DNA of 64,000 bases from contig JAFXBF010000002.1 of assembly GCA_017516745.1 (NCBI GenBank), positions 1 to 64,000 on the forward strand, given 5' to 3'. The position numbers and the translations under genes are program-made. Within the stretch, counting starts at the first letter, position 1, and every line of letters starts with the position of its first letter. The notes under the pieces were generated by a model, which saw only the letters and a program-made list of their open reading frames with translations, was not told where the DNA came from and did not search any database. Positions 24,903 through 57,240 of the stretch are shown here, in pieces. The stretch is from Clostridia bacterium. GTDB taxonomy: Bacteria; Bacillota; Clostridia; Oscillospirales; Acutalibacteraceae.

Positions 24903-25775
24903 TTGGCAAGAAAGAAAAAAGAAACGGCTCAGCCCGAACAGCCCGTTAACAACGGCTTTGTTGAAGGCGCAAGCGGTCCGTATATCCCGGCTCTTACTCC
25001 GGATGATATGGATAAGTACGATGTAAATACAACCGCCGAAACAGTCTATAAACGAAACTGGTTAATCAGAATTCTGGCTATCATCGTCGGCGTGCTCATA
25101 CTTCTTCTCGGTATCGGATATGCCTGTACCTCGGTTATCAACAGCGCAGGCCGCTTCACCGTCAGTATGACGGGTAACCTCTACGGTATCCAGCTTGTAG
25201 ATAACGAGAAGTTTGAAAACCCCACGCTGACTCTCTACGGCTCAGCGGTTGAAAATATGGACAATATCACAAAGCACTGGCTGCTCAACAAAAACGGCGA
25301 GCTCGGCGACGACCCCGTTTATAACAGCTACGCAGATATTGACAAGGTCTACGGTGACCACAACGGTACAAACTACCTCGCCTATACCTTCTCGGTGCGC
25401 AACGGCGGCGAAGCCGTTCCGGGCGGTGAGGATGCAACGGTTGATTACCTGGCAAGTCTTGAAGTAGTCACAGCCTACAAGGGCGCAGACGAAGCAATAC
25501 GAGTCATGGTTTTCATAAACGGTAAACCCACTACATACGCAAAGCCCCGGGTTACCGACGGCAAAAAGGAAACATTCGAAGCGGACAAAAACTTCATATC
25601 CGACACAATGGTTATGCAGTACACCCGCAAGAACTTCAAGGTAGACCAAAGTGACAGATATACTGTCGTCGTCTGGCTTGAGGGCGAAGATCCTGAATGT
25701 GTCAACGACATTATGGGAGGTGAAGTCAAACTCAAGATGACCCTTGAGGTTCTTGACAGAGAAAAGGCCGATTAA
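24903..25775 (+). CDS. membrane-anchored surface protein of the SipW/TasA-type locus
   Basis: 290 residues. I prefer the TTG start (protein beginning ARKKKETAQ) because GGGAG lies about nine bases upstream; an ATG three codons earlier abuts that site. A Pro/Glu-rich cytoplasmic segment of about 50 residues precedes one membrane helix (about 53-77: WLIRILAIIVGVLILLLGIG). The external domain is about 210 residues of predicted beta strands. It ends in a VVVWLEGEDPEC block that recurs in the next two TasA-like proteins. There is no AWF-type cleavage site, so it probably stays in the membrane and could act as an assembly base, by analogy with TapA. The function is inferred from neighbours. Confidence 0.6.
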   Translation: MARKKKETAQPEQPVNNGFVEGASGPYIPALTPDDMDKYDVNTTAETVYKRNWLIRILAIIVGVLILLLGIGYACTSVINSAGRFTVSMTGNLYGIQLVDNEKFENPTLTLYGSAVENMDNITKHWLLNKNGELGDDPVYNSYADIDKVYGDHNGTNYLAYTFSVRNGGEAVPGGEDATVDYLASLEVVTAYKGADEAIRVMVFINGKPTTYAKPRVTDGKKETFEADKNFISDTMVMQYTRKNFKVDQSDRYTVVVWLEGEDPECVNDIMGGEVKLKMTLEVLDREKAD

Positions 25776-25909
25776 GTTGGGGGAGACTTATTAAAGCCGA
25801 TTTTCAGTCACAGGGTTTGATTTTATCAACCGCAATAGTCGAAAACACTTTGGATAAAATGTGTTTCTAATCCCTAAAAAAACACTACTCTTAAATGGAG
25901 GAAAAAACT

Positions 25910-26716
25910 ATGAAAAAACGTTCACTCGTGGCAGCACTTGCGATGCTCATGGTATCCGCAATTGTTCTCACATCATCCACCTACGCATGGTTCGCAACCG
26001 GTACAACAGCTAAGGTTTCCGGTATCAGCGCACAGGTAAGCAACACATCCGGTAACATCACAATCTCTGCTGATGGTACAAACTACTCAACAACTCTTGA
26101 GTATGCTGCTTTCCAGGGTCAGGCAGGTAACTTTACTCCTGCTGATTTCTCACCCGTATCATTCGACCCCATCAACCAGGCTTTCATCGCAGGTAGCATT
26201 GCTCAGGGCGAGGATGCAGGCGACACAGCTACATTCGGCAAGCTCGTCTTCAATCCCGCAACAGCTACAAACGATAACGGAAAGTTCATCAAGATGAAGG
26301 TTTATGTTAAGGCTTCTGTTGATTGCACAGTTAACGTTGCTGCTGATATGTCAGGTTCTACATATCAGTTTATCTACGGTGCAATCTTTGAGGATGACAA
26401 CACAACAAACTACAAGGTTTACAACACAGCTTCCAGAACTTATGTTCCTGTTCTCCAGGCAACAGCAGGTATTGACGTTGACACAGACGGTATCATGGAA
26501 TCCACAGATACCCTTACTGACGGCGCAACACCTTACAACGCTCTTGCAGCTGAGGCTGTCACAACCTCAACAAGCGATGTAGTTTCTCTCAGCCTCTCAG
26601 CTGACCAGCCCAAGACAATCACACTCTACGTATGGGCAGAAGGTAACGATGCTCTTTGCGTAGGTAACATTGCTTCTCAGGCTTGTGCAGTTGCTCTCAA
26701 CTTCACAAAGGTCTAA
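25910..26716 (+). CDS. TasA/camelysin-like secreted protein with SipW-type signal peptide
   Basis: 268 residues from MKKRSLV; GGAGG eight bases upstream excludes the slightly longer frame. The N-terminus is a SipW-cognate signal peptide: basic start, hydrophobic core, then SSTYAWFATG near residues 22-31. The mature protein is rich in Thr, Ser, Ala and Gly, poor in Lys/Arg, and strand-rich, as expected for a filament or matrix subunit. It ends with LYVWAEGNDALC, matching the C-terminal motif of its two neighbours. A very GC-rich hairpin follows the gene. The signal class is clear; the filament role is by analogy with TasA. Confidence 0.75.
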   Translation: MKKRSLVAALAMLMVSAIVLTSSTYAWFATGTTAKVSGISAQVSNTSGNITISADGTNYSTTLEYAAFQGQAGNFTPADFSPVSFDPINQAFIAGSIAQGEDAGDTATFGKLVFNPATATNDNGKFIKMKVYVKASVDCTVNVAADMSGSTYQFIYGAIFEDDNTTNYKVYNTASRTYVPVLQATAGIDVDTDGIMESTDTLTDGATPYNALAAEAVTTSTSDVVSLSLSADQPKTITLYVWAEGNDALCVGNIASQACAVALNFTKV

Positions 26717-26760
26717 TTTTAACCTATATTACTTAGTTTCAGTTAATTAAACTGATTTTG

Positions 26761-26785
26761 CCGGGTCGGGCGTGACCCGACCCGG
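26761..26785 (+). terminator. GC-rich hairpin after the first TasA-like gene
   Basis: Perfect ten-base-pair stem (ccgggtcggg / cccgacccgg) with a five-base loop but no T-tract behind it. It may stabilise the abundant subunit message or partly terminate it, letting the downstream peptidase be made at a lower level. Confidence 0.5.
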
Positions 26786-27012
26786 TGTTCCCCCTATTTA
26801 TTTTCTCCCCCAAGGCAGGGGCGGTAAGTAATCCGCTTCTTGCAAAACAAAAATTTGTGATTTAGCTAAAACACAACTTTCTTCGGGGCTGTCGCTGGCA
26901 GCTCCCGAGCCTATTCCTTGCGGTGCTTCACCGCACCGCAAGGGGTAAGTGAAAGAACAGTTTTTAATGCGTAATTCGTAATTAAAATTAAAGCACACCA
27001 CCAAAAGGTTGA

Positions 27013-27156
27013 GTCATCCTGAGCGCAAGCGAAGGATCTTAAAATGCAGAAAACAGTTGATTCATATATTTAATAAAAAATAAATATATGAATGAGATGT
27101 TTTCCGTAGGGGCGATTCATAATTTGCCTGTCATCCTGAGCGAAAGCGAAGGAGCT
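27013..27156 (+). repeat. two direct copies of a dispersed repeat
   Basis: Copies at 27013-27040 and 27130-27156 share gtcatcctgagcg, then aagcgaagga. This motif is common between genes in Clostridia; here both copies lie just before a SipW-type peptidase gene. Confidence 0.6.
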
Positions 27157-27211
27157 AAAATAAATAAAAAATCTCAAATTCCCATAAACTAAAAAATGCG
27201 AGGTATTTTTA

Positions 27212-28276: not shown

Positions 28277-28330
28277 GCCTTCCCCTTGAGGGGAAGGGGG
28301 ACCGCCGAAACGGCGGTGGATGAGGTGTTA
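28277..28330 (+). repeat. palindromic dispersed repeat (GAGGGGAAG type), copy A
   Basis: Contains cttccccttgaggggaag, then an inner hairpin ccgccgaaacggcgg, then tggatgaggtg. The same outer framework recurs at 57249-57294, 59519-59573 and 59599-59646 with different inner hairpins. Confidence 0.65.
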
Positions 28331-28443
28331 AATCTCAACGCCCTTAAATATTTATATTATTATTATATACATTATTTATCTTTCCGGTATTCAATGAGCA
28401 CGGTGCTCTAAAATAAAAATCTTAAGTAAAGAGGGTAAACAAA

Positions 28444-29310
28444 ATGGCAAAACGCAAAATAGGACTTTCAATCATCGTTCTTATCGTTGCCGCAACAACA
28501 ATGGTATCAGGTACATACGCCTGGTTCCTCGTAGGTGGCTTCGCAGAGCTGTTCGACCTCGGCTTCGATGTAATTGAAGCAGGCGGCGGCATCGAAATTC
28601 AGGGCTCCGCAGGTACGGCTTATGTTGTTGAGGGCGGCGAGTCGGCTGCTTGGGGTGCTTACCTCGACAGAGATAATTTCGCCGAAGGCGAGCTCATTGC
28701 CGCAGACGGCAAGTACGCTCCCGTTTCCAGTGCAGACGGCGCAGCTTTCACAAAGGTCGGTCTTCAGGGCGGCTACTTCGCATCCCTTACACCCGAAAAG
28801 GGTAAGGACTACAACGAAATGACTATCAAAATTCGTTCCACAACAGCAGAAGCTGTTACGGGTACAATGCACGTTGCTCTTACCGGTAACGATTCAGGCC
28901 ATGAGGCTGTCAGCGCAGCACGTATCTCCGTAACATACGCAGGTAATACAACAATTTTCGCAATGGCAGGCGACAGCACACAGGCTGTTACTTCAAATGA
29001 CATTCCTGTCGAAACCGTTGTTGATGCCAACAATAACAGCATCATCGACTCTGCAGAAGCTAACGGCGTTGTTTCACTCGCAACACAGACAATTACCGAG
29101 CTTACACAGTCTGCCGCAGACCAGAACAAGTACGAAGGCTCACTTGAGCTTGCCAACATTCCCGGTAACACGGGCTCCGAAACAATTGTTGTCCGTATCT
29201 GGATTGAAGGTAACGACACAGACTGTACAGGTGAAAAGCTTTCCGCTAAGCACCTTGCAGCTTCTATCTCCTTCGGCTCAGTAAGTGAAGACGAAACTCC
29301 CGCTGCATAA
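28444..29310 (+). CDS. TasA/camelysin-like secreted protein with SipW-type signal peptide
   Basis: 288 residues. The SipW-cognate signal shows a KRK start, a hydrophobic core and VSGTYAWFLVG near residues 20-30. The mature chain is Ala/Gly/Thr-rich and predicted beta-rich. It carries near its end VVRIWIEGNDTDC, the same Trp-Glu-Gly-Asp-Cys pattern as the two preceding surface proteins; that cysteine is the only one in the protein. It is followed 55 bases later by its own SipW-type peptidase. This substrate-then-peptidase order repeats four times in the locus. Confidence 0.75.
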   Translation: MAKRKIGLSIIVLIVAATTMVSGTYAWFLVGGFAELFDLGFDVIEAGGGIEIQGSAGTAYVVEGGESAAWGAYLDRDNFAEGELIAADGKYAPVSSADGAAFTKVGLQGGYFASLTPEKGKDYNEMTIKIRSTTAEAVTGTMHVALTGNDSGHEAVSAARISVTYAGNTTIFAMAGDSTQAVTSNDIPVETVVDANNNSIIDSAEANGVVSLATQTITELTQSAADQNKYEGSLELANIPGNTGSETIVVRIWIEGNDTDCTGEKLSAKHLAASISFGSVSEDETPAA

Positions 29311-29365: not shown

Positions 29366-30232
29366 ATGAAGAAAAAGAACATTTTAGACAACAGAATATT
29401 TCATATTGCAATGAATGTTCTCTCTTCAATCATTCTCATTTTCTCTATTGTTGTCTGTGCGATGGTTATTATCTCGACAAAATCCTCAACGGGTGTTGCA
29501 AACCTCGGCGGTTATTCGTTCCTCTCCGTTCAGAGTGATTCAATGGAGGATATCTTTTTCCCCGGCGATTTGATTATTGTCAAGCGCTATAACAAAACGC
29601 ACCAATACAAGGAGAATGACATTATTTCCTTCATTGCCTACGATAACACAGGCTCTATGTATATCAATACTCACAGAGTTATCAAGGTTAAAAACACCAA
29701 CGGCTACATAAGCTATGTCACAAAAGGTGACAATGCTGACGAGCCGGACAGAAAAGAGGTTCCGTCCTCACGCATACTCGGCACATACACCGGTAAGCGT
29801 GTCAGCAATCTCGGCAAGTTCTTCGATTTTGCCGAAACCTCACAGGGTGTATTGCTGTTGATTGTTCTGCCGGCTGCCCTTATTGTAATCTGGCAGCTCT
29901 TCGGCTATCTTCGTTCTCTTGCAATCGACAAAAAAACTCAGCCTCAGCCTGTTTACCAAAACGCTCAGCCTCGGTCTTACCCTCCTGCGGCTCAGAGCGA
30001 CAAGGATGCTATCATAAGGGAATACCTCAGACAGCAACAGGAAGAGGAAGCAAGAAAGCAACAGATTATCGAAGAATATCTGCAAAAGCAAAAAGAGCTT
30101 GAGCAGGCAGAAAAAGAAAAGGCGGAAGAAGCAAAAATCAAGGCAATCATTGCAGAATTTCTCGCCCAGCAAAAGGCTGCTGAAGAAAAAAATGAGCAGC
30201 AGCAGGGCAATGACAATAACGACCAAGTTTAA
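29366..30232 (+). CDS. SipW-type signal peptidase I with cytoplasmic coiled-coil tail
   Basis: 288 residues. An N-terminal helix (about 13-36) is followed by catalytic Ser59 in QSDSM and His103 in NTHRV. An acidic TKGDN box and a second membrane helix (about 161-180) come next. The tail of about 100 residues begins with a Pro/Gln-rich linker and continues as a charged coiled coil with REYLRQQ (218-224), EEYLQKQ (236-242) and AEFLAQQ (263-269). These units match those in the tail of the other long peptidase of the locus. Ser/His chemistry marks the S26B class; the tail is unusual for it. Confidence 0.82.
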   Translation: MKKKNILDNRIFHIAMNVLSSIILIFSIVVCAMVIISTKSSTGVANLGGYSFLSVQSDSMEDIFFPGDLIIVKRYNKTHQYKENDIISFIAYDNTGSMYINTHRVIKVKNTNGYISYVTKGDNADEPDRKEVPSSRILGTYTGKRVSNLGKFFDFAETSQGVLLLIVLPAALIVIWQLFGYLRSLAIDKKTQPQPVYQNAQPRSYPPAAQSDKDAIIREYLRQQQEEEARKQQIIEEYLQKQKELEQAEKEKAEEAKIKAIIAEFLAQQKAAEEKNEQQQGNDNNDQV

Positions 30233-30259: not shown

Positions 30260-31849
30260 ATGAGCGGTATTTTCCAGTTTTTAGGTGACTTTCTCGACCA
30301 GCTTTTCGTTAAAGGCTTCTGGGGAATAATCAAGGGCTTCGGCCTTGGCGTTGCAAACATTTTCAACGTTCCCAAGTATGTAAATATTTTCAGAGAGTAT
30401 GCAGGCACTCTCGGTGTCGGCGGTATCATCCTCGGCGCACTGTGCTGTTTGCTTGTGCTGGCTCTGCTTGCAGGTATTATTCTTCTGATTGTTCTTCTCG
30501 TTCGAAAATATGTCCGTTTCCGTAAGACGGTTGTCAACCAGGAGGAACTTCTCAACGAGGTTGCCACCCTCAACCGTGAGGTTATGAAGCTCTCCATTGA
30601 AAAGGATAAAATTCTTGCAATGAAGGTTTCTCAGCTCGGCCTTCGTCCCGGCGAAAATCCCTACCTTGAATCTGCTGTTGACGGCTCATCGGGTGCCGCC
30701 GCTGTTGCTGCCGAAGGTGCAGAAGGCGAGGTATCACCCGAAGGTACAGACGACAGAACAGCCGATGACTACAGCCGTTTCTACAAGCTCACCCAGGTTG
30801 ATATTGAAATGGAAGGCTATGAGCCCCCCGTTTACAATAATGAAATCACTCTTCCCGAAATCATTGATATGTACCGTAACTTTGCTGCTTCAAGAATGGG
30901 CCTTTATTATGAGCACAGAACGCTCCGCCTCTTCCTTGCTGCATTTGCTTCAACCCGTCTGATTATCTTACAGGGTATTTCCGGTACAGGTAAAACATCA
31001 CTTCCTTACTCCTTTGGTAAGTTCCTTCAGAATGACGCCACAATTGCTTCCGTTCAGCCCTCATGGCGTGACCGTACCGAGCTTTTCGGCTACTTTAACG
31101 AATTTACCAAGCGCTTCAACGAAACAGAAGTTCTCAAGAAGATGTACGAGGCTACATACAAAGAAGATATCTATCTCACCATCCTCGACGAAATGAACAT
31201 CGCCCGTGTTGAGTACTATTTCGCAGAAATGCTTTCAATTCTCGAAATGCCCAGCCGTGACGAATGGATTGTTTCCCTTGTTCCGTCGGTTTGGCCCACT
31301 GACCCCAAGCACCTCTTCGATGGTAAGCTCAAGCTCCCCGATAATATGTGGTACATCGGCACAATCAATAACGACGACTCGACCTTCGCCGTTACCGATA
31401 AGGTTTATGACCGTGCTATCCCGATTGACATTAACACAAAGGGAAAGTTCTTTGAAGCACCCTGGACGGATAACCTCACCCTCAGCTACAAGCACCTTGA
31501 ATCAATGTTCAACGAATGTAAAGAAAAGTATAAGGTTTCAGAAGAAAGCCTTCGTAAACTTGCAGAGCTTGACGACTATGTTATTGAACACTTCCGTCTT
31601 GCTTTCGGTAACCGTATTGTTAAGCAGCTTCAGGAATTCGTTCCCGCTTATGTCGGCTGCGGCGGCACGGAAATCGACGGCCTTGACTTTGTTCTTTGTC
31701 ACAAGATTCTCCGTAAGTTTGAATCCTTGAACCTTTCCTTCATCCGTGATGAAATCTCCGGTCTTATCACTTACCTCAACAAGCATTTCGGTAAGTCCAA
31801 TATGAACGAGTCTAAGGAATACCTTGAAAGACTCCAGAAGATGATGTAA
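30260..31849 (+). CDS. membrane-anchored McrB-like AAA+ ATPase
   Basis: 529 residues. An amphipathic N-terminus is followed by a membrane segment (about 53-82), then a coiled coil (about 92-122) and an Ala/Glu-rich linker. The AAA+ domain, of the McrB/MoxR-related AAA_5 type, begins near residue 195. Walker A is GISGTGKTS (239-247), and Walker B is LTILDEMN with Asp310/Glu311. Sensor 1 is GTINNDDS, and an Asp384-Arg385 pair sits where arginine fingers of the family lie. McrB proteins usually drive a nuclease partner. Here the next gene encodes a DUF2357-like protein without a visible nuclease. The membrane anchor and the setting between signal peptidases suggest a different job, perhaps remodelling or clustering of the export machinery (inference). 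Confidence 0.75.
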   Translation: MSGIFQFLGDFLDQLFVKGFWGIIKGFGLGVANIFNVPKYVNIFREYAGTLGVGGIILGALCCLLVLALLAGIILLIVLLVRKYVRFRKTVVNQEELLNEVATLNREVMKLSIEKDKILAMKVSQLGLRPGENPYLESAVDGSSGAAAVAAEGAEGEVSPEGTDDRTADDYSRFYKLTQVDIEMEGYEPPVYNNEITLPEIIDMYRNFAASRMGLYYEHRTLRLFLAAFASTRLIILQGISGTGKTSLPYSFGKFLQNDATIASVQPSWRDRTELFGYFNEFTKRFNETEVLKKMYEATYKEDIYLTILDEMNIARVEYYFAEMLSILEMPSRDEWIVSLVPSVWPTDPKHLFDGKLKLPDNMWYIGTINNDDSTFAVTDKVYDRAIPIDINTKGKFFEAPWTDNLTLSYKHLESMFNECKEKYKVSEESLRKLAELDDYVIEHFRLAFGNRIVKQLQEFVPAYVGCGGTEIDGLDFVLCHKILRKFESLNLSFIRDEISGLITYLNKHFGKSNMNESKEYLERLQKMM

Positions 31850-31942: not shown

Positions 31943-34063
31943 ATGGGAACTTCATACGAAGACCTCTATAATGAATACAAAGCAGGTACATTGTCACTCT
32001 TCGATAGTGATGATTACTACAGCAATATGCTTGAGGCTATGGAAACCGGCAAGCATGAAATATCTATGTTCAATCGTTTCTTTGAAAAGAAGATTGATTT
32101 AAAATGGGTTGAGGCTATCGAGGCCTGTACTGTTGCACTCGATACCATTGTCCGTAACCCCCGTAAGTTCATCGTTCAGGAAGAAGAAATCGTTCCCATC
32201 GAGCGTGCAAGAAAGATTACCGCCGAATCGGTACGCCACCTTGCACAGCACACCAATATGATTGCCCGTGTTGACGGCGATAAGGTTACTCCCAGCCAGA
32301 TTCTTAACGTTTTCCGTGAAGAAAGCTTTGAAATTTACGAAAACCGTTTCATTTTTACATTACTTCGAAATCTCCAGCACTTTATCGACACACGATATAA
32401 CGTGCTTTTCAATATGGAGCAGGATGAACAGCGTTCCTCGCTCACAATGAACAGCGAAATCAAGAAGGGTCACGAGACCATTACATATAAACTTGAGGTT
32501 GCAACACAGACAACAGCTACTATGAGTGCCGAGGATATGAAGCCCGGCGATGAAAATGTCAGCGCCCTTGCAAGAATTGAGCGTATCAAGCGTGTTGTTA
32601 ACGGCTTCTGCTCATCCTCATTTATGCGTGACCTTGTTCACTGTACTCCCGTGCGTCCTCCGATTATGCGTACAAACGTTATTCAGAAGGACCCCAACTT
32701 CCGTGCCTGCCTTAATCTCTGGCAGTTCATCTCGTCTTACGATGAGGTCGGCTACGAAATTACAGCAAAAGAAACCAACGAAATGGTGCCCGACGATTAT
32801 AAGAACGATTTGTTCAAGCTGGCATCTGTTAACTATATGTTGCTCAAGAAGAATATCGGTGAGCAGGAATACGAAGAAGGTAAGTTCAAGAAGCGTAAGG
32901 TCAAGCCGAAGCTTCTCAAGCGTCTTGCCGAAGAACTTGTTCTCAACTACGATATGGAAGAGGTTGAGATACGCAAAGTATTTATTGAAGAACTCAAACG
33001 TGCCAACAAAAAGAAGACTGCGGGCGAGACCAAGATTAATGAGGCTATCGACCGTGCATTGAAGTCCGAAAACGAGCGTAAGGCTGACATCGAAGCCAGA
33101 ATTCAGGCAGAAATTCAGCGCAAGAAGGAAATCGAAAAACGCCGCAAGGAAAGAGAAAAGGCAAAGCTTGCCAGAGAACTTGCTCTCGAAAAGGAGAGGA
33201 AGGCAAAAGAAAAGGCAAGACTCAAAGCCAAGAAGGAAAAAGAGCTTGCTCTCGAAAAAGAACGCAAAGCAAAAGAAAAAGAGCGTGTCAGAAAAGCAAA
33301 GCTGCGTGAGCAGGAGCTTGAACGACAGGCTAAGGAAAAAGAAAAAGCCAGACTTGCAAAAGAAAAGGCAAGAGAAGAAAAACTCAGAGCTTTGGAAGAG
33401 GAAAAAGCAAGAAAAGCAGCACTCCTCGCTGAACAGAAAAAGCAAAAAGAGCTTGCCGCTAAGCAGGCCGAAAAAGAAAAGCAACTTGCAGCTAAACAAA
33501 AGGCAAGAGAAAAGCTGGCAAGGGAAAAGGCTTTACAAGCTGAAAAAGAGCGTAAAGCAAAACTCAAGTCAAAGGAAAAAGAGCGCTTAGCAAAGCAGAA
33601 GGCTCTTGAAGAGCAAAAGGCTAAAGATGCGGCCGCAAAACAGAAGGCAAAAGATAAAGCCGCAAAGGAAAAAGCTGCTCAGCTCGAAAAAGAAAAGGCT
33701 GCAAAGGCTAAAATGAAGGAAAAAGAGAAGTCAGCCAAGGCAAAAGCACTTGAACAGCAGAAAGCCAAGGATGCAGCCGCTAAAATAAAGGAAAAAGAAA
33801 GGGCTGCAAAGGAAAAGGCTTTACAGGCTGAAAAAGAAAAAGCCGCTGCCAAGAAAGCCAAGGAAAAAGAAAAACTGGCTAAACAGCGTGCTTTAGAAGC
33901 AGAAAAAGAAAAGGCGGCTAAAGCAAAACAGAAGGCAAAAGAAAAGGCCGCAAGGGAAAAGGCTTTACAAGCCGAAAAAGCAAAGGCAGCCGCTCAAAAA
34001 GCTAAAGAAAAAGAAAAGTTAGCCAAGCAGAAGGCTGCTGAAAAGGCAAAAACAGCAAAGTAA
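31943..34063 (+). CDS. DUF2357-like protein with a 350-residue coiled-coil tail
   Basis: 706 residues. The first 345 form a helical domain with SFEIYENRFIFTLLRNL near 128-144, a pattern typical of DUF2357 proteins, which pair with McrB-like ATPases. In such pairs the C-terminus usually carries a PD-(D/E)XK nuclease. Here the C-terminal half (from about 350) is an uninterrupted Lys/Ala/Glu-rich repeat region (units such as KEKEKLAKQKALEAEKEKAAK), predicted to be one long coiled coil or single alpha-helix. No nuclease motif is visible, nor any signal peptide, so it should be cytoplasmic. The pairing with the upstream membrane-bound ATPase is strong by context. The tail could engage the coiled-coil tails of the nearby peptidases (inference). 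Confidence 0.65.
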   Translation: MGTSYEDLYNEYKAGTLSLFDSDDYYSNMLEAMETGKHEISMFNRFFEKKIDLKWVEAIEACTVALDTIVRNPRKFIVQEEEIVPIERARKITAESVRHLAQHTNMIARVDGDKVTPSQILNVFREESFEIYENRFIFTLLRNLQHFIDTRYNVLFNMEQDEQRSSLTMNSEIKKGHETITYKLEVATQTTATMSAEDMKPGDENVSALARIERIKRVVNGFCSSSFMRDLVHCTPVRPPIMRTNVIQKDPNFRACLNLWQFISSYDEVGYEITAKETNEMVPDDYKNDLFKLASVNYMLLKKNIGEQEYEEGKFKKRKVKPKLLKRLAEELVLNYDMEEVEIRKVFIEELKRANKKKTAGETKINEAIDRALKSENERKADIEARIQAEIQRKKEIEKRRKEREKAKLARELALEKERKAKEKARLKAKKEKELALEKERKAKEKERVRKAKLREQELERQAKEKEKARLAKEKAREEKLRALEEEKARKAALLAEQKKQKELAAKQAEKEKQLAAKQKAREKLAREKALQAEKERKAKLKSKEKERLAKQKALEEQKAKDAAAKQKAKDKAAKEKAAQLEKEKAAKAKMKEKEKSAKAKALEQQKAKDAAAKIKEKERAAKEKALQAEKEKAAAKKAKEKEKLAKQRALEAEKEKAAKAKQKAKEKAAREKALQAEKAKAAAQKAKEKEKLAKQKAAEKAKTAK

Positions 34064-46100: not shown

Positions 46101-49100
46101 TCGGCGGTCTGTTCTATCCCGTAACTGTAATCGGCAGCGATCTTACAGTTACTTCTTCCGAGATTGACGATGCGGATGAATTGGATTATCCGGCAGAAAT
46201 GGATACCGACCTTTATGGCAACGGTGACAGAAAGAATACGGACTTCCTTTTCAAGGACACGGAAAACGGAACAACCGTTTATACCAACATATTCGTATTC
46301 AGTCCTTTGAACGGTACTTATAATAAGGGCACACCGCACGATAACGGTGAATTGTTCTACAGCAACTCTCTGCCTTACTTTACTGTTGAAAAGACTGTCG
46401 GTAATCACAGCCTTTACAGAAAGGTAACCTATCCCATCCAGTCAAAGTATGAGGATGGCGGCAGACTTTACCCGATTGCAACGGAAAGACAGCTCAACGC
46501 TCTTGCCGACTATGAGACCTCCGGTACGTTTGCTGATTTCTCAAAGAACGTTAACTATGCACTTATCGAAAACATCACACTCGGTGATTATGAATTTAAG
46601 CCCATCACAGGCTTTACGGGTGTGCTCAACGGTAAGGGTCATACAGTTTCCAACGTCACTATCAACCGTCCTGAAAGTACAGCGCCTGTCGGCTTCTTCT
46701 CTGAGCTTACCAAAGGCACGGTCAAGAACCTTAATCTTGAGGTGAATTCCGTTGTCGGTAACAACTATGTCGGCGGTCTTGTCGGCTATGTCGGCGCTGA
46801 CGGTAACTCTCCCTCAAAGGTTGTTATCAGCAACTGCTCCGTTTCCTCCTACACCGAAAACAGCGGTGTTACAGGTAACGAATATGTCGGCGGTCTTGTC
46901 GGCTACGCTGTTGCAGGTGAAACGGCAGACGTAAATCCCGCAACCGGACTTGAGGAAGGTAAGGCAGGTTTCTTCAATTCCTTCACCGACGTTAAGGTTT
47001 CGGGTCTGAATGTTGTCGGCGGTCTTGTCGGCGGCAGCGAAATGTATATCACAAACTGTTACTCAACGGGCGATGTCAACGGCGCAATCAATGCAACAGG
47101 CGACACTCCCAGAGGTATAGGCGGTCTTGTCGGTCTGCTTGCGGCTAAATCAAATGCTGCTGCTTACCCGACACAGACTGACAGAAGTAAATACCAGGCA
47201 TTGCTCAACAGCTCCTTCAGCAGCAGTGCGGTCGATGTCAGCAGCGTAACAGGTTACAACACCAAGGGTAACGGTGTCGGCGGTCTTGCCGGTAATGTTA
47301 CACAGGGTACATCCATTGCTACTGTTTTCTCCAGCGGCAGTGTACGCTTCTGCTATGATGACAACGTAGCACATCCCGATTGTGAGAACTCACCTGCAAT
47401 TGGTGTCGGCGGTCTCGTCGGTGTTCTCAACAGTGAAACAAAGGAAGTTTATTCGGCTGCATCGGTTGCCGCAAAGGTCGGTAACCTCACACCTGCTTCC
47501 GTTGTAGGTATCGGCGGTGTTATCGGTGTTTCAAACGCTCACCTCCAGTCGGCATACTCCTCAGGCTCAACACTTGGTGAAACAAGCACAACTGCTCAGG
47601 AGATAGCAGACAACAGCTATAATTACGGTGTCGGCGGTGTTATCGGTCTTGTAAGCGGTAACGGTCTTGAATCCTCAAACCTTTACTTTGACCACAACGC
47701 TTCTGCTGTTTCGGATGCTCCCGTAGGCAGAGTTACGGCAGGCGTGCTTAAAGCACCTGCTTCCATCGGTTCAAAGTCAACCAAGGAGTTTACTCAGGTT
47801 CCCGAGGCTGACCGTGTTGACGGCGGCTTCCTCGGCGGTAACTTCCAGTTCACAACCGGTGCTTACCCGTATCTGTCCAACTTCTTTGCAGATACCGTTT
47901 CGCTCGTTATCAGATTCAATGCTCTTCTGAGTATTGTTGCTGTCGAAATTGATGAGCGAGATAAATCTGCTGTTGACGGTGACGGTATTTCAATGGCTAT
48001 GACCGTTCCCACAGGTGTTCCTCACGACGGTGTGGTTTACACCTACGGCTTTGAGGCTGACAACAGTGTCGGTAAATCAGCAACATCCATTGTTGATACC
48101 GCTACCAACACACTTTCAGTCCAGAGAACAAGCAACACCAAGGAACAGGCAAACTTTATTATCACAATTTCAACGGTTGACGGCAAACCGGGCGACGGAA
48201 ATGTAGTTTACAGTGAGGTCGCAAGCCGTCCGTTCTCCAGAGTTACGGCTGAAATGCTCGGTACTCAGGATAAGCCCTATCTTGTCGCTTCGCAGACTGA
48301 CCTTGAACACGTAGCAATGTCAGCTGAAGAACTGGGTAATGCTACCGGCTTGTATGCCGAGTGGAATACCCCGATCGATTCAAACGGCGAACCGCTTTCA
48401 GGCAAGGTTCACTACCGTCTGATGGGTTATGTAAACCTTAACGAGTCTGACGACAATCTGTACAACAGAAGCTTCAGCACTCTTGACGGCGGATATTTGC
48501 TTGACGGTAACGGCTATTCAATCCGTAAACTCTCAACAACTCTTGCAAATACGCTTGATGCAAACAGCTCTGTCACAAATGTCACCTTTGAAAATGTTAC
48601 ATTTGAGAGCGGCGAAAGCCTTATCGGCACACTCAACGGCTCTGTAATCGGTGTTAATGTATTCGGCAAAGCCTCGGGCAGCAATGTCGCAGGTATAGCA
48701 AATACGGTAGGCGAGAGCGGTCTTGTCGAAGGCAGTATTTCAGCTGTTGATTACACCAACAACGGTGAAGATGCTGCAGCCCAGAGCAATATTGCAGGTC
48801 TTGCTCTTACCAATAAGGGCACAATCAATATGAGTGCAAGCGTCGGCAGTATTTCAGGCAAAAACCTTACCAATGTCAGCGGCCTTGTCGGTACCAACAG
48901 CGGTGAAATCAAGAACAGCTTCACAATGGGCGATATCATTCTTGATAATCCTGCAGGTGTTGTTGCAGGCTTTGTCGGTACGAATAACGGAACGGTAGAA
49001 GCCGGTTACACACGTTGCAACTTCAAGGTTAAGAATGTTGCAGATGCTCTTACAATCGGCAGTTTTGCCGGCAGCAATATTTCTCTTTCCGAAGAGAAGA

Positions 49101-51354: not shown

Positions 51355-52008
51355 ATGAAAAGTCAGAAAACAAATGCTTTTCAGCTTGCAATCGCAGGCG
51401 GCGTGCTTGTGCTTGTGCTTGTCTGTGCTACCTTTGCGTGGTTTGCTGTGGGCGACCACGCTTGGGTAAGCAAAATCACAGCATCACTCGCTTCTCCCGA
51501 TGTCCCCTCACAGCTCAATTCAATCGAATATCACGATGGCTCCGAATGGGTAGGCTACAACGGCGGCCATCTTGATATTCAGCCCGGTCAGGTTTATAGC
51601 TTCCGTGTCAAGTTTACGGCAAAGGAAGACGACAGACTGACAATGGCACTCAGCGATATTTCAGCTTCTCTGCGTGAGCCTGAATCCGCAGAGGATAACG
51701 GCGATGAAGTTATCGAAGAAACAACCAGATTTCAGGTTGTTACAGAGGAAAATATGCTTTCCGATGTTTTGCATATAAAGCTCAATAAAGGCGAGTATGT
51801 ACCGATACCGTCTGACGGCGTTATTGTTAACAATAAGGTAGTTGACCCGTCCTGCAAGGTTGAGAATTCACCGCAGTATGTGTATGAATATCAGATTAAA
51901 ATGCTTGAATCGGCCGACAATACCTATGCCGGCAAAAAGCTGTCTTTTGTAATGGCAGTCAGCCTTCCCGATGGGGCGGAAGGGGATAACGCTCAGGCGG
52001 AAGGATAA
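51355..52008 (+). CDS. TasA-like secreted protein with SipW-type signal peptide
   Basis: 217 residues. Its signal peptide ends in VCATFAWFAVGD near residues 22-33, a SipW-cognate pattern. The mature domain has alternating strands, with a YSFRVKFTAKEDDRLTMALSDISASL segment (read as two parts) resembling camelysin/TasA folds, and an acidic C-terminus. It begins 23 bases after the giant gene and is followed six bases later by a SipW-type peptidase, forming a substrate-peptidase pair. The ribosome site (CAGGAA) is modest, so translation may be weaker than for the other subunits. Confidence 0.72.
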   Translation: MKSQKTNAFQLAIAGGVLVLVLVCATFAWFAVGDHAWVSKITASLASPDVPSQLNSIEYHDGSEWVGYNGGHLDIQPGQVYSFRVKFTAKEDDRLTMALSDISASLREPESAEDNGDEVIEETTRFQVVTEENMLSDVLHIKLNKGEYVPIPSDGVIVNNKVVDPSCKVENSPQYVYEYQIKMLESADNTYAGKKLSFVMAVSLPDGAEGDNAQAEG

Positions 52009-52014
52009 GGTAAA

Positions 52015-52587
52015 ATGAAAAAGGTTCTCGGCAAAATTATAAATATTCTCCTTGTGGCGCTCATTATTTTTGCCGCAGGCATACTTGTCCTTGTAGGTGT
52101 TAACGCCAAAAGCGGCAAGGCAACAACAGTTTTGGGCTACGGCTTTATGGCTGTACAAACGGGCAGTATGACTCCCGAATATCCCATAGGCTCGGTTATT
52201 ATAATTAAAGAAACCGATGCGAGTGAGCTTGAAGTCAAGGATGTTATCACATTCTATTCAAGCAACCCCAACCTTAACAATATGATTGTCACCCACAGAA
52301 TTATGGAAATCACCGACGATGGCGACGGTACATATTCCTTCGTAACACAGGGTGACGCAAACGAAATTCCCGACGAATATCCTGCTCAGAGTGAAAAGCT
52401 AATCGGCAAGGTTGTCGCCAAAAGCAACCTTATGGAAAAGCTTATGAAGGTCAGAGAAAATCCTGCGATTTTCCTGCTGGTCGTTGTGCTTCCGATGTGC
52501 TTTATCATCACTCTTGAGTTTGTAAATATAAGCAAAAAAATGAACGAAAAGACTAATGAAGATGACGAAAAAAAGAAAAAGCAGTAA
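52015..52587 (+). CDS. SipW-type signal peptidase I
   Basis: 190 residues, the same length as the classical SipW. Membrane helices lie at about 10-30 and 150-170, with catalytic Ser51 in QTGSM and His94 in VTHRI. A TQGDANEIPD box resembles the conserved acidic motif of the class. A short Lys/Glu-rich end replaces the long tail seen in the two peptidases upstream. It should process the TasA-like protein encoded just before it. Its last 32 bases overlap the next peptidase gene in another frame. Confidence 0.85.
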   Translation: MKKVLGKIINILLVALIIFAAGILVLVGVNAKSGKATTVLGYGFMAVQTGSMTPEYPIGSVIIIKETDASELEVKDVITFYSSNPNLNNMIVTHRIMEITDDGDGTYSFVTQGDANEIPDEYPAQSEKLIGKVVAKSNLMEKLMKVRENPAIFLLVVVLPMCFIITLEFVNISKKMNEKTNEDDEKKKKQ

Positions 52588-53062
52588 AGTTTTTACTGTT
52601 CTTGCTTTGGTTATGGCCTTGCTTTGTGTGGCTGTGTGGCTGCCGAGGTTTTTCGGGCTGGAGGCTTATTATGTCAAAACAGGCAGTATGGAGCCCAATA
52701 TTCCCGAGGGCAGTATGGTTTATACTGAAGCTGTTGAATTTGAAGATATCGTTACCGGTGCGGATGTTTTGCTTTTCTCAAACGACGCAGAAAACAAATC
52801 CTTTACCCACCGTGTAATGTATATAGATTATAAAAACGAACTTTTATACACAAAAGGCGATGCGAACAACGGGCCTGACCCGTTGCCCACTCCTTTTGAA
52901 CAGTGCAGAGGAAAGGTCATCCTGTATATTCCTTATTGGGGCTATGTTGTTCAGGCTATGAACTCTGCAGTCGGCAAAGTTGTAATTGCGCTTATTTATG
53001 TCGTGTGGCTTGCTGTAGAAATTGAAGGCTGCAAATCAAGAAAGAAAGCGGTGAAAGAATGA
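52556..53062 (+). CDS. SipW-type signal peptidase I, second of a tandem pair
   Basis: 168 residues. A basic start (KMTKKRKSSK) leads to a helix (about 12-30). Catalytic Ser44 is in KTGSMEPNIPEG and His85 in FTHRV, followed by the box TKGDANNGPDPLP. A C-terminal membrane helix ends the protein. The GSMEPNIPEG form is closer to the canonical S26B motif than in its neighbour. The frame starts inside the upstream peptidase gene and ends overlapping the next TasA-like gene by four bases, so translation is coupled. An alternative ATG two codons later is possible. It probably serves the following substrate. Confidence 0.84.
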   Translation: MKMTKKRKSSKVFTVLALVMALLCVAVWLPRFFGLEAYYVKTGSMEPNIPEGSMVYTEAVEFEDIVTGADVLLFSNDAENKSFTHRVMYIDYKNELLYTKGDANNGPDPLPTPFEQCRGKVILYIPYWGYVVQAMNSAVGKVVIALIYVVWLAVEIEGCKSRKKAVKE

Positions 53063-53826
53063 AAACAAAAATAATCTGTCTTATACTTTCGTTGGTTTTT
53101 GTTGTTGGCGCTTTTGGTGTTAACGGCACCTATGCGTGGTTTGTAACCTATGGCGGCGGCTCGGGCAGAGGCGTTGTTCATAATTTTCTTTCAGGTAATA
53201 TAGGCTACACTCTTGTCGGCGGTTTTATCGACAGCCAAACAACACCGACAATTAAGCCCGAAATGAATCTGCTTACAGGTCTTGAAAATATTCCCGAAAA
53301 TCTGGCACAGAACACAAAGCTGTACCTTGTGCCGATTGCTCTTGAATCCGACCTTGCCGAGGATGAAGAAAAAACACAGAAGTACGTTGATGCCCAGCTT
53401 AGAATGAAGGTTTTTTATACCTATATTGACGATGCAGGCAATATGGCAGACGGCTACAGCGTAGTAGGTCAGACAACCGATAACAGACCCTTTGTTGCAC
53501 AGCTTGCAACAGACACCGAAGGCAAAGTTTACTGGCAGTACGATGTTGAAACGGGATATTTCAACTATGTAAATCCCGAAACAAACAGCGATATTATTGT
53601 CGGCGGTCTTGAAGCTGTTGACCCCATACCGATGTTTACGGCTATGTACTACAGCGGCGAAAATTCGGATATACCCACTTCGGTTTTCAAGGATAAAAAC
53701 AATTTCACCGTAAAAATCGCTTTCCAGGCAAAGCAGGCAGCTTATGCTACATGGGAAAATATAGGCGAAATTACTTTCAGTACTCAGCAGACGGAAGAAC
53801 CGTCATCAACACAGGCTCAGTCATAA
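53059..53826 (+). CDS. TasA-like secreted protein with SipW-type signal peptide
   Basis: 255 residues. The signal peptide runs to VNGTYAWFVTYGGG near residues 21-34, the SipW-cognate type with Gly-rich residues behind the site. The mature region has a long strand-rich body, acidic overall, with a Ser/Thr/Gln-rich C-terminus. It lacks the W-EG-D-C motif of the first three surface proteins, so it belongs to a different subgroup. The start overlaps the preceding peptidase gene by four bases (ATGA), and its own dedicated peptidase follows 20 bases downstream. Confidence 0.72.
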   Translation: MKTKIICLILSLVFVVGAFGVNGTYAWFVTYGGGSGRGVVHNFLSGNIGYTLVGGFIDSQTTPTIKPEMNLLTGLENIPENLAQNTKLYLVPIALESDLAEDEEKTQKYVDAQLRMKVFYTYIDDAGNMADGYSVVGQTTDNRPFVAQLATDTEGKVYWQYDVETGYFNYVNPETNSDIIVGGLEAVDPIPMFTAMYYSGENSDIPTSVFKDKNNFTVKIAFQAKQAAYATWENIGEITFSTQQTEEPSSTQAQS

Positions 53827-53846
53827 GTTGAGATTGGTTTGAATTT

Positions 53847-54329
53847 ATGAAAATATTTAACGTAATTTACAATACCGTTGCAATTATAATAGTTCTGGTT
53901 TTTGTGTTTACTCTCGGCCTTAAAATAACCGATACGAAAACCTATGCAGTAGCAACTCCGAGTATGGAGGATGAGCTGCACGAAGGCGATATGGTTTTTG
54001 TCCGTGAGGCAGGGGAGTATGCCGAGGGTGATATAATTACCGCAAAGCTTTCGTCAGGCGGTACATTTACTCACCGTATCGATTATATCGATTATGAAAA
54101 GAAGCTCGTTTACACCAAAGGTGACAGCAATCCTCAGCCCGACCCGTTACCCACCGGGTTTGACGATATTATCGGCAAGGTTGTTTTCAGTGTGCCTGCT
54201 TTGGGGCTGATTTCGCTGAAATTCAATTCTACCGCTGTGGTCACGGTGCTTGCGGCAGTTTTACTTGCAATAATGCTTGTACGCTTTGCAGTCTATAAAT
54301 TTAAGCAGAAGGGAGAAAAGTCTGTATGA
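53847..54329 (+). CDS. SipW-type signal peptidase I
   Basis: 160 residues, the smallest of the five. An N-terminal helix (about 5-25) is followed by catalytic Ser39 in ATPSMEDELHEG and His76 in FTHRI. A TKGDSNPQPDPLPTGF box and a C-terminal helix (about 128-150) follow, with a short basic end. The DPLPTGF extension is shared with the second peptidase of the tandem pair, so the two are close paralogues. Its stop overlaps the next substrate gene by four bases (ATGA), which supports a coupled peptidase-substrate cassette. Confidence 0.84.
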   Translation: MKIFNVIYNTVAIIIVLVFVFTLGLKITDTKTYAVATPSMEDELHEGDMVFVREAGEYAEGDIITAKLSSGGTFTHRIDYIDYEKKLVYTKGDSNPQPDPLPTGFDDIIGKVVFSVPALGLISLKFNSTAVVTVLAAVLLAIMLVRFAVYKFKQKGEKSV

Positions 54330-55138
54330 AAAATATAAATAAGCGCAGTGTTTTCAGTCTGGTGCTTTGCGCAATGCTTGTTTTTTGCATAGGCGTTTAC
54401 TCCTCTGCTGAACCCACAACCGCTTGGTTTTCAGATTCAGGTGAAGATTCCGAAACCTATAAAATGGAAGAAATCAACGTTGCCTTTTCGGGCGACAGAT
54501 TGGGCGAAAACGAAACGGCACTTGAACTGAAATTTGATGCAGCAACCAAGTTTGACGATGCTGATGAGCGTGCAAAAATGTTTGAGCATGCTGCCAAATA
54601 CTATGTTTTCACAGCAAAGAATAACAACCCCGTCGGCGGTCTTGATGCCGCAATTGCCGTTGATATCAGATATCCCAACGCACAGGGAGATATTATGACA
54701 TCAGCCGAAGTTGATAAGGGTCTGCGTTATTTTGTTTATGAAATCGACACAGCAAACGATGTCAGAACAAAAGATATCGAATTGGCACCCGGTGTCTGGG
54801 TAGATGCCGAGGATAAATGTCTTGTCAAGCCCTTTGAAAACAACGATGACCTTTTCTATGATTCAAAGCTTGCCGATAAAATTGAAGAAAAAATAGCTGC
54901 CCGGACGGGCTTTGAAAGCTTCACACCCGAACAAAAGCTCGAATTTTTAAGCGGCATTCAGGAAACAACTCAGCCTCTGGCCCCCGGCAGCGAAAAAACG
55001 TACTGTGTCTGCTTCTGGGTTGAATACGATGTGTTTGTCAGCCAGGCAGAAACCGTGGATTCTGTCCGCAACCTTACCTTTGATGTCGATGTCAGAATTA
55101 CCGCAGAACAGTACGATAAAACTGTGCTTGCCGAATAA
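54326..55138 (+). CDS. TasA-like secreted protein with SipW-type signal peptide
   Basis: 270 residues. The hydrophobic signal core is followed by SAEPTTAWFSDSGED near residues 27-41. The AWF followed by Ser/Asp is the classic SipW-cognate motif. The mature part contains a helix-rich middle (DDADERAKMFEHAAKYY) and a final strand section with CVCFWVEYDVFV, unlike the other subunits. TasA-like folds also place a helix between strands. It is translationally coupled to the peptidase before it and followed 24 bases later by another AWL-type protein. Confidence 0.7.
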   Translation: MKNINKRSVFSLVLCAMLVFCIGVYSSAEPTTAWFSDSGEDSETYKMEEINVAFSGDRLGENETALELKFDAATKFDDADERAKMFEHAAKYYVFTAKNNNPVGGLDAAIAVDIRYPNAQGDIMTSAEVDKGLRYFVYEIDTANDVRTKDIELAPGVWVDAEDKCLVKPFENNDDLFYDSKLADKIEEKIAARTGFESFTPEQKLEFLSGIQETTQPLAPGSEKTYCVCFWVEYDVFVSQAETVDSVRNLTFDVDVRITAEQYDKTVLAE

Positions 55139-55162
55139 ACTTAACCGAAAGGGCGCATTATA

Positions 55163-55777
55163 ATGAGCAAAACCAAATCCACAAAAAAATACAAGCTCAA
55201 TCCGTTGGCGGTTGTCGCTCTGGTGCTTTGCGCCTTGATTGCGGTTTACTGCGGTACTACAGCCTGGCTTACAAGCGGTGTGCCGCTCAATCCTCTCCGT
55301 CTTACAAGTTTGCAGGATTTTGTTTACAGCATTGAAGTTTCAACCAATGGCGGTGAAACATGGGCGCCCAAAAGTGAGGTGCTCACCTTTGCCAAGGAAG
55401 ATATAGGCGATCTTGCCAACGTCTGCTTCAAAGTAAAGCAGGCAGGTAACGGTGTTGCTTTTACAAGAGTCAGAATTTCGCAGGAGTGGGTAATGTCGGA
55501 CGGTAAACGCCTTCAGGGTGAATACAACCTGCCCTTTATCGTTGCCGAAAATGATAAGCTCTTTGATAACAGATTTACTGATGGTTTCGTTTATTATAAA
55601 GGTGCTTTCCCGATAAGTGATGAAGGCGTTGAGATTTTCAGCGGTTTTGATTTCGCTAATTTCGATACCTCGGCTATTCCGAGCGGTGTGACACTGCGCA
55701 TTGATGTAACTGTCGATGCCGTACAGTTCAACAGATATCAGCAGTTCTGGGGTATTGATGCTCTCCCGTGGAGATAA
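55163..55777 (+). CDS. secreted or anchored protein with SipW-like AWL signal
   Basis: 204 residues. The basic start and hydrophobic helix (about 12-34) end in CGTTAWLTSG, a SipW-cognate site with Leu in place of Phe. The mature domain carries strand patterns (IEVSTNGGETWAPKSEVL, VCFKVKQAGNGVAFTRVRI) and ends in FWGIDALPW. It is the last gene with this kind of leader, and no peptidase immediately follows it; one of the five upstream would have to act. Whether it is cleaved or remains anchored cannot be decided from sequence. Confidence 0.62.
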   Translation: MSKTKSTKKYKLNPLAVVALVLCALIAVYCGTTAWLTSGVPLNPLRLTSLQDFVYSIEVSTNGGETWAPKSEVLTFAKEDIGDLANVCFKVKQAGNGVAFTRVRISQEWVMSDGKRLQGEYNLPFIVAENDKLFDNRFTDGFVYYKGAFPISDEGVEIFSGFDFANFDTSAIPSGVTLRIDVTVDAVQFNRYQQFWGIDALPWR

Positions 55778-55802
55778 CTGTAAAACAGGAGAATAAACTC
55801 AA

Positions 55803-56702
55803 ATGGCAAACAGAAGACAAAAAAAGAAAAAAAATGCCGCAGCCGCTCGTCAGGCTGCGGCTCAATATAAGGGCAAAAATGCTCCCGTAAAGGTTGCTGC
55901 TCCCGTGAAAAAGGCGGAGCCCAAGCCTGACCCTGTTCCCGAGGTGAAGCCTGAGCCCAAGCCCGAAATAAAGCCTGAGGTAAAGCAGGAAATCAAAAGG
56001 GAAGTAAAGCAGGAGAATAAGCCTGCCGTACCCGTAAAGCCTAAAAAAGAAAAGGCAAAGCCTGCACCGAAGAAAAAGCCTGTCAGGTTCAAGAAACCGA
56101 AGAAGAATTACGGCAAAATCATTGCCAAAAAGATTTCCGATTTCGGTATCAATAAGGTTGCTGCCATAATTCTTGCCGTCAGCGTGGTTATTGCTGCCGT
56201 GTGTGTTATTGCGTGGGTTTCTTCTTCACGCTTTTCCGTGCCCGATGAAGCTGTTATCGAGTACAGAGGCCGTACAATTCCCGATACCTCAACCTATATC
56301 GTGACTGATGACCTTGTTACCCAGTACGGCTTTGCGGATAATATGAAGCGTAAGGGCGATGTGGACGATTTCCGCTACTATGCGGCAACCGAGCTTGTTT
56401 TCCCCGAAAAGTACTCAAGCGCTAATCTCAATCTTGTAAATGTCTTTGACAATAACTGTGTGTTTATCGCAAGCATTGTCAATTCGTCCGATACGGTAAT
56501 TTACCGTTCGCTCGGTCTTGAGCCGGGTAAGGCACTATCCGATATATTTATCAGCGACCTTAAATACGGCAGACATGATATGAAGCTTGTCATTGCCGCT
56601 TACGACCCTGAAAGCTATGAGCTTATCGGTGTTCAGTATTCCGACCTTACTGTTCAGGTCGGCTTGGAAGAGGAAACAAAGGATGCAGAAAAACAAAGCT
56701 GA
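55803..56702 (+). CDS. single-pass membrane protein with Pro/Lys/Glu-rich cytoplasmic region
   Basis: 299 residues. The first 110 are cytoplasmic and extremely Pro/Lys/Glu-rich, with KPEPKPEIKPEVKQEIK-type repeats. A membrane helix follows (about 120-143). The external part of about 150 residues ends in a compact strand-rich domain (VFIASIVNSSDTVIYRS, LEPGKALSDIFI, HDMKLVIAAYDPESYE). The next gene encodes a shorter protein with the same kind of external domain. The Pro-rich arm could reach through the cytoplasmic face or bind a partner of the locus. The family is not recognised. Confidence 0.6.
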   Translation: MANRRQKKKKNAAAARQAAAQYKGKNAPVKVAAPVKKAEPKPDPVPEVKPEPKPEIKPEVKQEIKREVKQENKPAVPVKPKKEKAKPAPKKKPVRFKKPKKNYGKIIAKKISDFGINKVAAIILAVSVVIAAVCVIAWVSSSRFSVPDEAVIEYRGRTIPDTSTYIVTDDLVTQYGFADNMKRKGDVDDFRYYAATELVFPEKYSSANLNLVNVFDNNCVFIASIVNSSDTVIYRSLGLEPGKALSDIFISDLKYGRHDMKLVIAAYDPESYELIGVQYSDLTVQVGLEEETKDAEKQS

Positions 56703-57240
56703 AAAACTCAATAAAAAAAGCTTTGCACAAATGCTTAAAGAGCCCAAGGTTATGCAGGCGGCAATTATGCTCGCCATCAGCAGCCTTGTGCTTGCTATTG
56801 CTGTTTTTTCGCTTAATTCTCTCGGCTTTTTTCATATGCTTGCCGGTTTTACAATTCCCCGTGGCGCAGTAAAAGAGGGCGTTATTTATGAAAAAAATCA
56901 GATTACCGAAATACCCGAAGGGGAAATCCGTTACCGACTGAATACGGATATTGTTTTCGATAATCTCTATTGCCGTGGCAGTATAATGCTCGAAAACCCG
57001 AAGGTATCTCAATACGATCTGGAGTTCAAGTTCTACCTGCCGAAAAATCAGTCCGACCCGATTTATGAGTCACCCCGACTTAAACCCGGCGAGTGTATTC
57101 TCAACGACAAGCTGACGGATAAACTCAGCCTCAGAAAGGGCGATTACGCCTGCATCTGCGTTGTAAGTGCTTATAACGAAAAAGGCGAGTACTGCGGCAA
57201 AAACACCTGTACGGTGTATATAGATATTCTGGATAATTAA
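56683..57240 (+). CDS. single-pass membrane protein, paralogue of the preceding external domain
   Basis: 185 residues from MQKNKAEKL; a longer frame upstream lies inside the previous gene and has no ribosome site. A short basic cytoplasmic end precedes a membrane helix (about 25-47). The external strand-rich domain matches the preceding protein in order of segments: LEFKFYLPKNQSDPIYES, LKPGECILNDKL, DYACICVVSAYNEKGE. It starts within the end of the previous gene (20-base overlap), suggesting coupled synthesis and perhaps a complex. It is the last gene of the surface locus. Confidence 0.6.
   Translation: MQKNKAEKLNKKSFAQMLKEPKVMQAAIMLAISSLVLAIAVFSLNSLGFFHMLAGFTIPRGAVKEGVIYEKNQITEIPEGEIRYRLNTDIVFDNLYCRGSIMLENPKVSQYDLEFKFYLPKNQSDPIYESPRLKPGECILNDKLTDKLSLRKGDYACICVVSAYNEKGEYCGKNTCTVYIDILDN

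Follow-up and report, generated by a model that had tools for sequence, protein, structure and literature searches.

We analysed a window of 64,000 nucleotides (nt) of a Clostridia bacterium from the family Acutalibacteraceae (contig JAFXBF010000002.1, positions 1 to 64,000), which contains a surface locus between positions 23988 and 57240. The locus comprises a gene pair encoding an AAA+ protein and a DUF2357 protein, five signal peptidases of family S26B (SipW/archaeal type), six proteins whose signal peptides end in AWF or AWL (hereafter AWF proteins), a membrane-anchored protein termed anchor1, a giant surface protein and an EAL-domain protein. We consider it reasonably probable that in this CoCoPALM-type locus the apparently nuclease-free, McrBC-derived AAA+/DUF2357 pair powers or gates the assembly of surface filaments, a process coupled to the S26B peptidases.

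The McrBC-derived AAA+/DUF2357 pair

The pair is encoded by two consecutive genes:

30260..31849, + strand: membrane-anchored McrB-like AAA+ protein, predicted GTPase, with a transmembrane segment (TM) at residues 63-81, the Walker A motif GISGTGKT and an NNDD motif
31943..34063, + strand: DUF2357/McrC-N-like protein with no recognisable nuclease and a coiled-coil-like tail of about 330 amino acids (aa)

By comparison of the AAA+ protein with the PDB, McrB chains were the only matches at an E-value (E) of 0.01 or better, the best being 5e-8. The residues N370, N371, D372 and D373 were invariant in 21/21 aligned AAA+ proteins (set A1, which is without the partial or uncaught proteins of genomes G122 and G087 and without that of G110b). 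Within the N-terminal 200 residues one TM was found and no Pfam match; FtsL_Actino matched residues 60-135 weakly, below the cut-off (E 0.011). The DUF2357 protein exceeded the cut-off of its Pfam family (E 1.3e-11), and McrC structures occupied ranks 1-4 for the DUF2357 model. Against PDB sequences, its full profile gave coiled-coil chains (best 60 of 119 matches) and a profile of the DUF2357 core nothing useful. Judged by these sequence comparisons, the pair is derived from McrBC.

In defence-type relatives the DUF2357 partner bears the nuclease family PDDEXK_7, as seen in 3/3 partners scanned (of 20 loci) with an E of 4e-43 or better. The coiled coil of the window protein occupies the place of this nuclease, and no PD-(D/E)xK nuclease family was among its Pfam matches. 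The 22 members of set A2, which is without G110a (cut) and G110b, likewise disclosed no such family among the 25 of 40 families listed. A narrow PDDEXK_7 profile, which is insensitive and also misses the tail of the defence-like G110b protein, detected none in the other 114 of 117 DUF2357 open reading frames (ORFs). Set A3 is without four of the 77 DUF2357 loci (window included), and set A6 without L064, which has masked letters, and six others.

At four loci (L034, L035, L036 and L119) the DUF2357 protein exhibits an extra stretch past the coiled coil that ends in a C-terminus of the IYYF or IYYY type and, by eye, slightly resembles the C-terminus of DegV. With regard to a possible phage origin, two unannotated fecal phage records encode relatives of the AAA+ protein: MT835511.1:40037-41104 (human fecal phage), with 36% over 55% of the protein, and a second record, with 30% over 32% of it.

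Conservation and gene fusion in relatives

Relatives were studied at 80 named loci, the best 80 of at least 573, most of which are contigs of metagenome-assembled genomes (MAGs) and which are no random sample; together with the window they make up 81 loci. The DUF2357 gene lies 3′ of the AAA+ gene in 76/76 named loci with at least 1.5 kb downstream. S26B genes were present in 78/80, both exceptions starting at or near the AAA+ gene. Among the 56 loci with at least 5 kb upstream, that region harboured an S26B gene in 52, anchor1 in 51 and an EAL-like gene in 33. By comparison, S26B and anchor1 were each found at 0/20 defence-type McrB loci of the phylum sample. An earlier note on this DNA, made from the sequence alone, had proposed just such a neighbourhood analysis, and its expectation that the pair stays beside the S26B genes was borne out.

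The family sample of 200 genomes, own included, gave the same picture. A DUF2357 gene occurs in 23 of them, own included; it is preceded by the AAA+ gene in 22/22 other pair-bearing genomes, and an S26B gene is present at 21 of these 22 loci, the exception being a contig that starts inside the AAA+ gene. G110b, a second, defence-like match in a pair-bearing genome, has neither S26B nor anchor1 and was left out of the family tallies and of the family peptidase tree. Since G018, a genome of the same genus, contains no DUF2357 gene, the distribution of the pair is patchy. Genome-wide, S26B genes were detected in 22/22 other pair-bearing versus 90/177 pair-less genomes (Fisher p 1.3e-6, a value that ignores kinship). 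Where the pair occurs, SipW-type enzymes thus occur too, whereas the converse does not hold. Anchor1 was found in 24 of the 200 genomes, 22 of which, own included, bear the pair; in the other two the locus ends at a contig edge, in one case inside the AAA+ gene. No anchor1 was seen in one further genome that bears the pair and is 59% complete. Anchor1 is therefore nearly exclusive to pair-bearing genomes.

The neighbourhood is kept across Ruminococcus, Christensenellaceae and Bacilli MAGs. In a quick tree, the AAA+ proteins of these loci formed one clade separate from the defence type, with a support of 97 in the Shimodaira-Hasegawa-like approximate likelihood ratio test (SH-aLRT); the tree omits roughly half of the named AAA+ proteins, long-branch warnings were issued and the defence rows are weakly rooted (47). 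The phylum sample contained no close AAA+ relative, as 48/397 other genomes gave matches of at most 131 bits. In the order sample, 24/294 other genomes matched at 661-984 bits and five more at 298-474 bits. Five outlying loci (L209 to L213) have AAA+ relatives at 298-475 bits and no S26B gene; DUF2357 adjoins the AAA+ gene in four of the five, and at L209, L210 and L212 one DUF2357 gene is flanked by two AAA+ matches. At the two loci scanned, L209 and L211, surface proteins with a transglutaminase core, leucine-rich repeats/collagen or immunoglobulin-like domains adjoin the AAA+ relative. Because these loci lack S26B and, in the two scanned, lie beside surface proteins, the AAA+ branch may have acted in the envelope more broadly.

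A further link between the pair and the peptidases is a gene fusion. Of the 76 named loci that encode DUF2357, six (L110, L113, L121, L124, L129 and L136) have it fused to an entire S26B peptidase (E 1e-47 to 7e-53), giving proteins of 973-998 aa. All six are labelled Ruminococcus, and R. albus KH2T6 and R. flavefaciens YRD2003 are among them. The fused domain has kept the Ser and His motifs and is flanked by two TMs. Since in a peptidase tree of a chosen part of the loci the fused domains form one clade (94), nested in a group (99) that also holds separate peptidases encoded downstream in their kin, the fusion probably goes back to one event. It is in these relatives only that the sequences show a physical link of DUF2357 and peptidase.

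Peptidases, substrates and layout of the locus

Five S26B genes are located in the locus, each scoring above the cut-off of TIGR02228:

27212..28276, + strand: S26B signal peptidase 1, with a C-terminal coiled-coil-like tail (by composition)
29366..30232, + strand: S26B signal peptidase 2, with a coiled-coil-like tail (by composition)
52015..52587, + strand: S26B peptidase 3
52556..53062, + strand: S26B peptidase 4 (position clade, SH-aLRT 95)
53847..54329, + strand: S26B peptidase 5 (position clade, SH-aLRT 99)

SipW-type enzymes have a His in place of the Lys, and the Ser and His motifs were present in all five, as the earlier note had read them. The genome, 97% complete, gave eight TIGR02228 matches, and these five are the only ones above cut-off; with the narrower SipW equivalog NF046067, all five scored below the cut-off. 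In a peptidase tree of the family loci (55 rows), all 26 upstream copies formed one clade (SH-aLRT 99). Clades of six each also emerged for the copies at the second (95) and third (99) downstream positions; the first downstream copies were not one clade. A wider tree of 57 rows, covering a chosen part of the loci, united 26/27 upstream copies (89). The trees mark the locus peptidases as old, position-specific lines. A coiled-coil-like tail was rejected as a general rule for AAA-proximal peptidases, as it occurs in 21/75 upstream and 6/54 downstream copies.

The putative substrates and the three further membrane-anchored proteins of the locus are:

24894..25775, + strand: anchor1, with a cytosolic tail, one TM and an extracytoplasmic domain
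25895..26716, + strand: AWF-signal substrate 1, pilin-like beta-sandwich
28444..29310, + strand: AWF-signal substrate 2
51355..52008, + strand: AWF-signal substrate 3
53059..53826, + strand: AWF-signal substrate 4, ATGA overlap
54326..55138, + strand: AWF-signal substrate 5, ATGA overlap
55163..55777, + strand: AWL-signal substrate 6
55803..56702, + strand: membrane-anchored protein 2, TM 119-137; four long relative loci have a similar protein in this position
56683..57240, + strand: membrane-anchored protein 3, distant relative of protein 2, with a likely ATG start at 56683 (ORF 56587-57240); five long relative loci have a similar protein in this position

All six signals claimed earlier are hydrophobic and were recovered, as was the coupling of genes by ATGA, which is exact at 53059 and 54326. 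At 52556 the genes overlap by 32 nt. At the 81 loci the AWF signal rule, applied to ORFs not matched by the family profiles, was satisfied by 124/670 same-strand versus 2/649 opposite-strand ORFs, and at the 20 defence-type loci by 1/297. AWF signals at the loci thus exceed chance. By this rule no AWF protein was seen at 17 of the 81 loci, a group in which many are incomplete. For the substrate model, 31 of 50 among the matches listed were donor-strand pilins or related filament subunits; the substrate profile retrieved nothing useful from PDB sequences. The extracytoplasmic domain of anchor1 proved homologous to substrate 1 (hhalign probability 98.2, E 4e-14), and both exhibit a W-x-E-G-x-D-x-x-C motif near the end. 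The earlier description of the substrates as TasA-like was not supported at the family level: TasA family PF12389 gave 0 matches in the own genome at E 1e-3, the Bacillus subtilis control being positive; at the fold level the support is weak. Proteins 2 and 3 show distant similarity to each other (25% over 154 columns, E 2e-5) and gave no Pfam match above cut-off.

Two further genes and three putative signals complete the locus:

23712..23741, + strand: terminator-like hairpin followed by T8, upstream bound of the locus
23882..23910, + strand: promoter-like TTGACA-17-TACAAT with TG ahead of the second hexamer, a strong match by consensus comparison only
23988..24785, + strand: EAL-domain protein with degenerate active-site residues (Pfam EAL, E 4.4e-39; PDB alignments)
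34184..51331, + strand: giant GLUG-repeat surface protein of 5,715 aa with a hydrophobic N-terminus (Sec-type signal by eye) and no AWF
about 57298..57327, + strand: terminator-like hairpin followed by T6, 3′ of the last gene, seen by eye and not listed by the hairpin scan

Every assigned gene from 23988 to 57240 is on the + strand, and the GLUG motifs of the giant protein are above cut-off; the first description of the locus is confirmed. Its extent of 24,903-57,240 agrees in gene content and probably falls short at the start, where the EAL gene would have to be added upstream. Because a terminator-like hairpin and a strong promoter match precede this gene, the transcription unit probably opens there. 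PDB alignments place an alanine at the start of the EAL triad in the window protein; among 35 rows the first glutamate is kept in 11 and the lysine position in four, positions which we take to have catalytic roles in EAL proteins. The protein is, by these residues, a probable cyclic di-GMP (c-di-GMP) receptor or interaction module.

Gaps between the genes of the locus reach 495 nt. The gap of this length (26716-27212) contains a hairpin rich in GC as well as a GTCATCCTGAGCG..AGCGAAGGA-like or similar repeat in two copies, possibly an interspersed repeat. Between 22000 and 58000 no RNA family reached its gathering threshold.

Proposed mechanism, alternatives and comparison with known systems

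We propose that hexamers of the AAA+ protein, a predicted GTPase with one TM, are held on the cytoplasmic side of the membrane and activated by the McrC-like DUF2357 subunit, both together forming the part of a filament assembly machine that uses energy or acts as a gate. DUF2357 would be coupled to the S26B peptidases, by gene fusion in Ruminococcus and perhaps by coiled coils in the window, and the pair would also be tied to anchor1. The dedicated peptidase lines would free pilin-like subunits with AWF signals, which may polymerise, presumably by strand complementation, on anchor1 as a membrane-anchored pilin-like base, so that release of subunits is coupled to growth of the filament. The giant GLUG protein and the two other anchors may belong to the same surface structure, the giant protein forming another layer or a tip with the later substrate-peptidase pairs. 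The degenerate EAL protein probably lets c-di-GMP tune the structure. Filament formation, the GTP-driven coupling of processing and assembly and the control by c-di-GMP are what we infer from this arrangement.

In a stronger form, which we advance tentatively and hold to be somewhat less than an even bet, the locus would encode a distinct secretion and assembly machine: a restriction-derived McrBC GTPase that has lost its nuclease would, from the cytoplasm, drive or gate a pilus assembly coupled to signal peptidases. Its McrC-like partner would be joined to a peptidase, as in the Ruminococcus fusion, several non-interchangeable peptidases would each serve their own pilin-like subunits, anchor1 would be the base and c-di-GMP the input. 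We know of no cytoplasmic energy-using part in Gram-positive donor-strand filaments and of no GTP-driven signal peptidase complex so far; if the proposal is true, this would be the first one known. Since the conservation, the phylogenetic split from defence McrBC and the gene fusion all point the same way, it is very likely that in gut and rumen bacteria a restriction-type GTPase has been converted to an envelope machine.

The best surviving alternative, unlikely in our judgement, is a MoxR-type chaperone or remodelling pair that matures one membrane complex, that of anchor1 and the giant protein, and takes no part in signal-peptide processing. AAA+ chaperone pairs such as RavA-ViaA provide a precedent; moreover, the pair is followed more closely by anchor1 than by S26B, and there are the outlying loci with AAA+/DUF2357 and no S26B. 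The lack of a same-strand AWF protein in the stretch scanned at the six fused loci speaks for a chaperone as well and weighs slightly against filament assembly; R. albus has one AWF protein next to the EAL gene, encoded on the other strand. Both the fusion and the upstream peptidase in 52/56 loci point instead to the peptidase as the partner of the pair.

Less probable still is a defence system, in which the McrBC-like pair would act as a sensor of invading nucleic acid or of phage damage to the envelope and the surface genes would be the effector or the guarded target. Besides the homology to McrB and McrC, PADLOC PDC-M26A matches part of the AAA+ protein at E 1.1e-39, and it was a survey of Type IV restriction that gave the CoCoPALM clade its name (PMC11090510). 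Against this stand the window protein without nuclease family, compared with PDDEXK_7 in all defence-type partners scanned, and the negative, albeit insensitive, result of the narrow nuclease profile. The PADLOC partner candidate M26B gave no match at E 0.05, so that the combination M26A+M26B was not encountered. In addition, the pair occurs steadily with peptidases and anchor1, and it is a signal peptidase to which DUF2357 is fused. That the pair is a linked passenger, without filament role, of an ordinary SipW-type matrix operon would fit the S26B peptidases of 90/177 pair-less genomes and is very improbable given the neighbourhood conserved from Ruminococcus to Bacilli MAGs, the single AAA+ clade and the fusion. 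Filament assembly driven or gated by the pair hence remains our preferred reading, and two isolates, R. albus KH2T6 and R. flavefaciens YRD2003, make it testable by their compact version with the fusion.

With McrBC Type IV restriction systems the locus shares the AAA+ domain and the McrC N-terminal fold; unlike these, it has a membrane anchor, and neither a recognisable nuclease nor, among Pfam matches to the N-terminal 200 residues of the AAA+ protein, a recognition domain was found in its pair. In the tapA-sipW-tasA system of B. subtilis the signal also ends before an aromatic residue and a partner protein is present, as here. To our knowledge the AAA+/DUF2357 pair is no part of that system, consistent with the earlier note, which had regarded it as foreign. 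An S26B peptidase and filament-type substrates are common to both (PMC9674648, PMC10151520). Unlike tapA-sipW-tasA, the window has five peptidases, six substrates, the pair and a giant protein, and its genome no match to the TasA family. The sipW-bsaABCRSD operon of Clostridium perfringens resembles the locus by combining a SipW-type peptidase with several secreted proteins, including a polymer-forming subunit; it differs in having one peptidase and a two-component system, and the passages cited describe no AAA+/DUF2357 pair (PMC7395162).

The closest system is CoCoPALM, a clade named in 2024 in eLife for McrBC-like pairs with signal peptidases in about three sentences, with the analysis deferred (PMC11090510; PMC10542128). 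The window has three of its four stated features: a predicted McrB-like GTPase of the NxD clade (here with invariant NNDD), an McrC homologue (DUF2357) with a coiled coil, and associated signal peptidase genes; of the fourth, an N-terminal FtsB-like TM and coiled coil on the GTPase, it displays the TM and the sub-threshold FtsL_Actino match (PMC11090510). It is thus a CoCoPALM-type locus, and because CoCoPALM is in print, the association of pair and peptidases is not new; the multi-component filament or matrix suggested by the earlier note is still the best reading, with the neighbourhood of the pair conserved. The signal peptidases were proposed there as pilus assembly factors, and the word SipW does not appear in the main text (PMC11090510). 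The CoCoPALM passages mention no SipW/pilin cargo, nuclease loss, fusion, anchor, EAL gene or position-specific peptidase lines, some of which the supplement may list. Within the literature searched, the SipW/pilin cargo, nuclease loss, fusion, anchor1, EAL link and fixed peptidase lines were not found described for these systems. The loci give the CoCoPALM clade a concrete function to test and speak against filing it with restriction systems.

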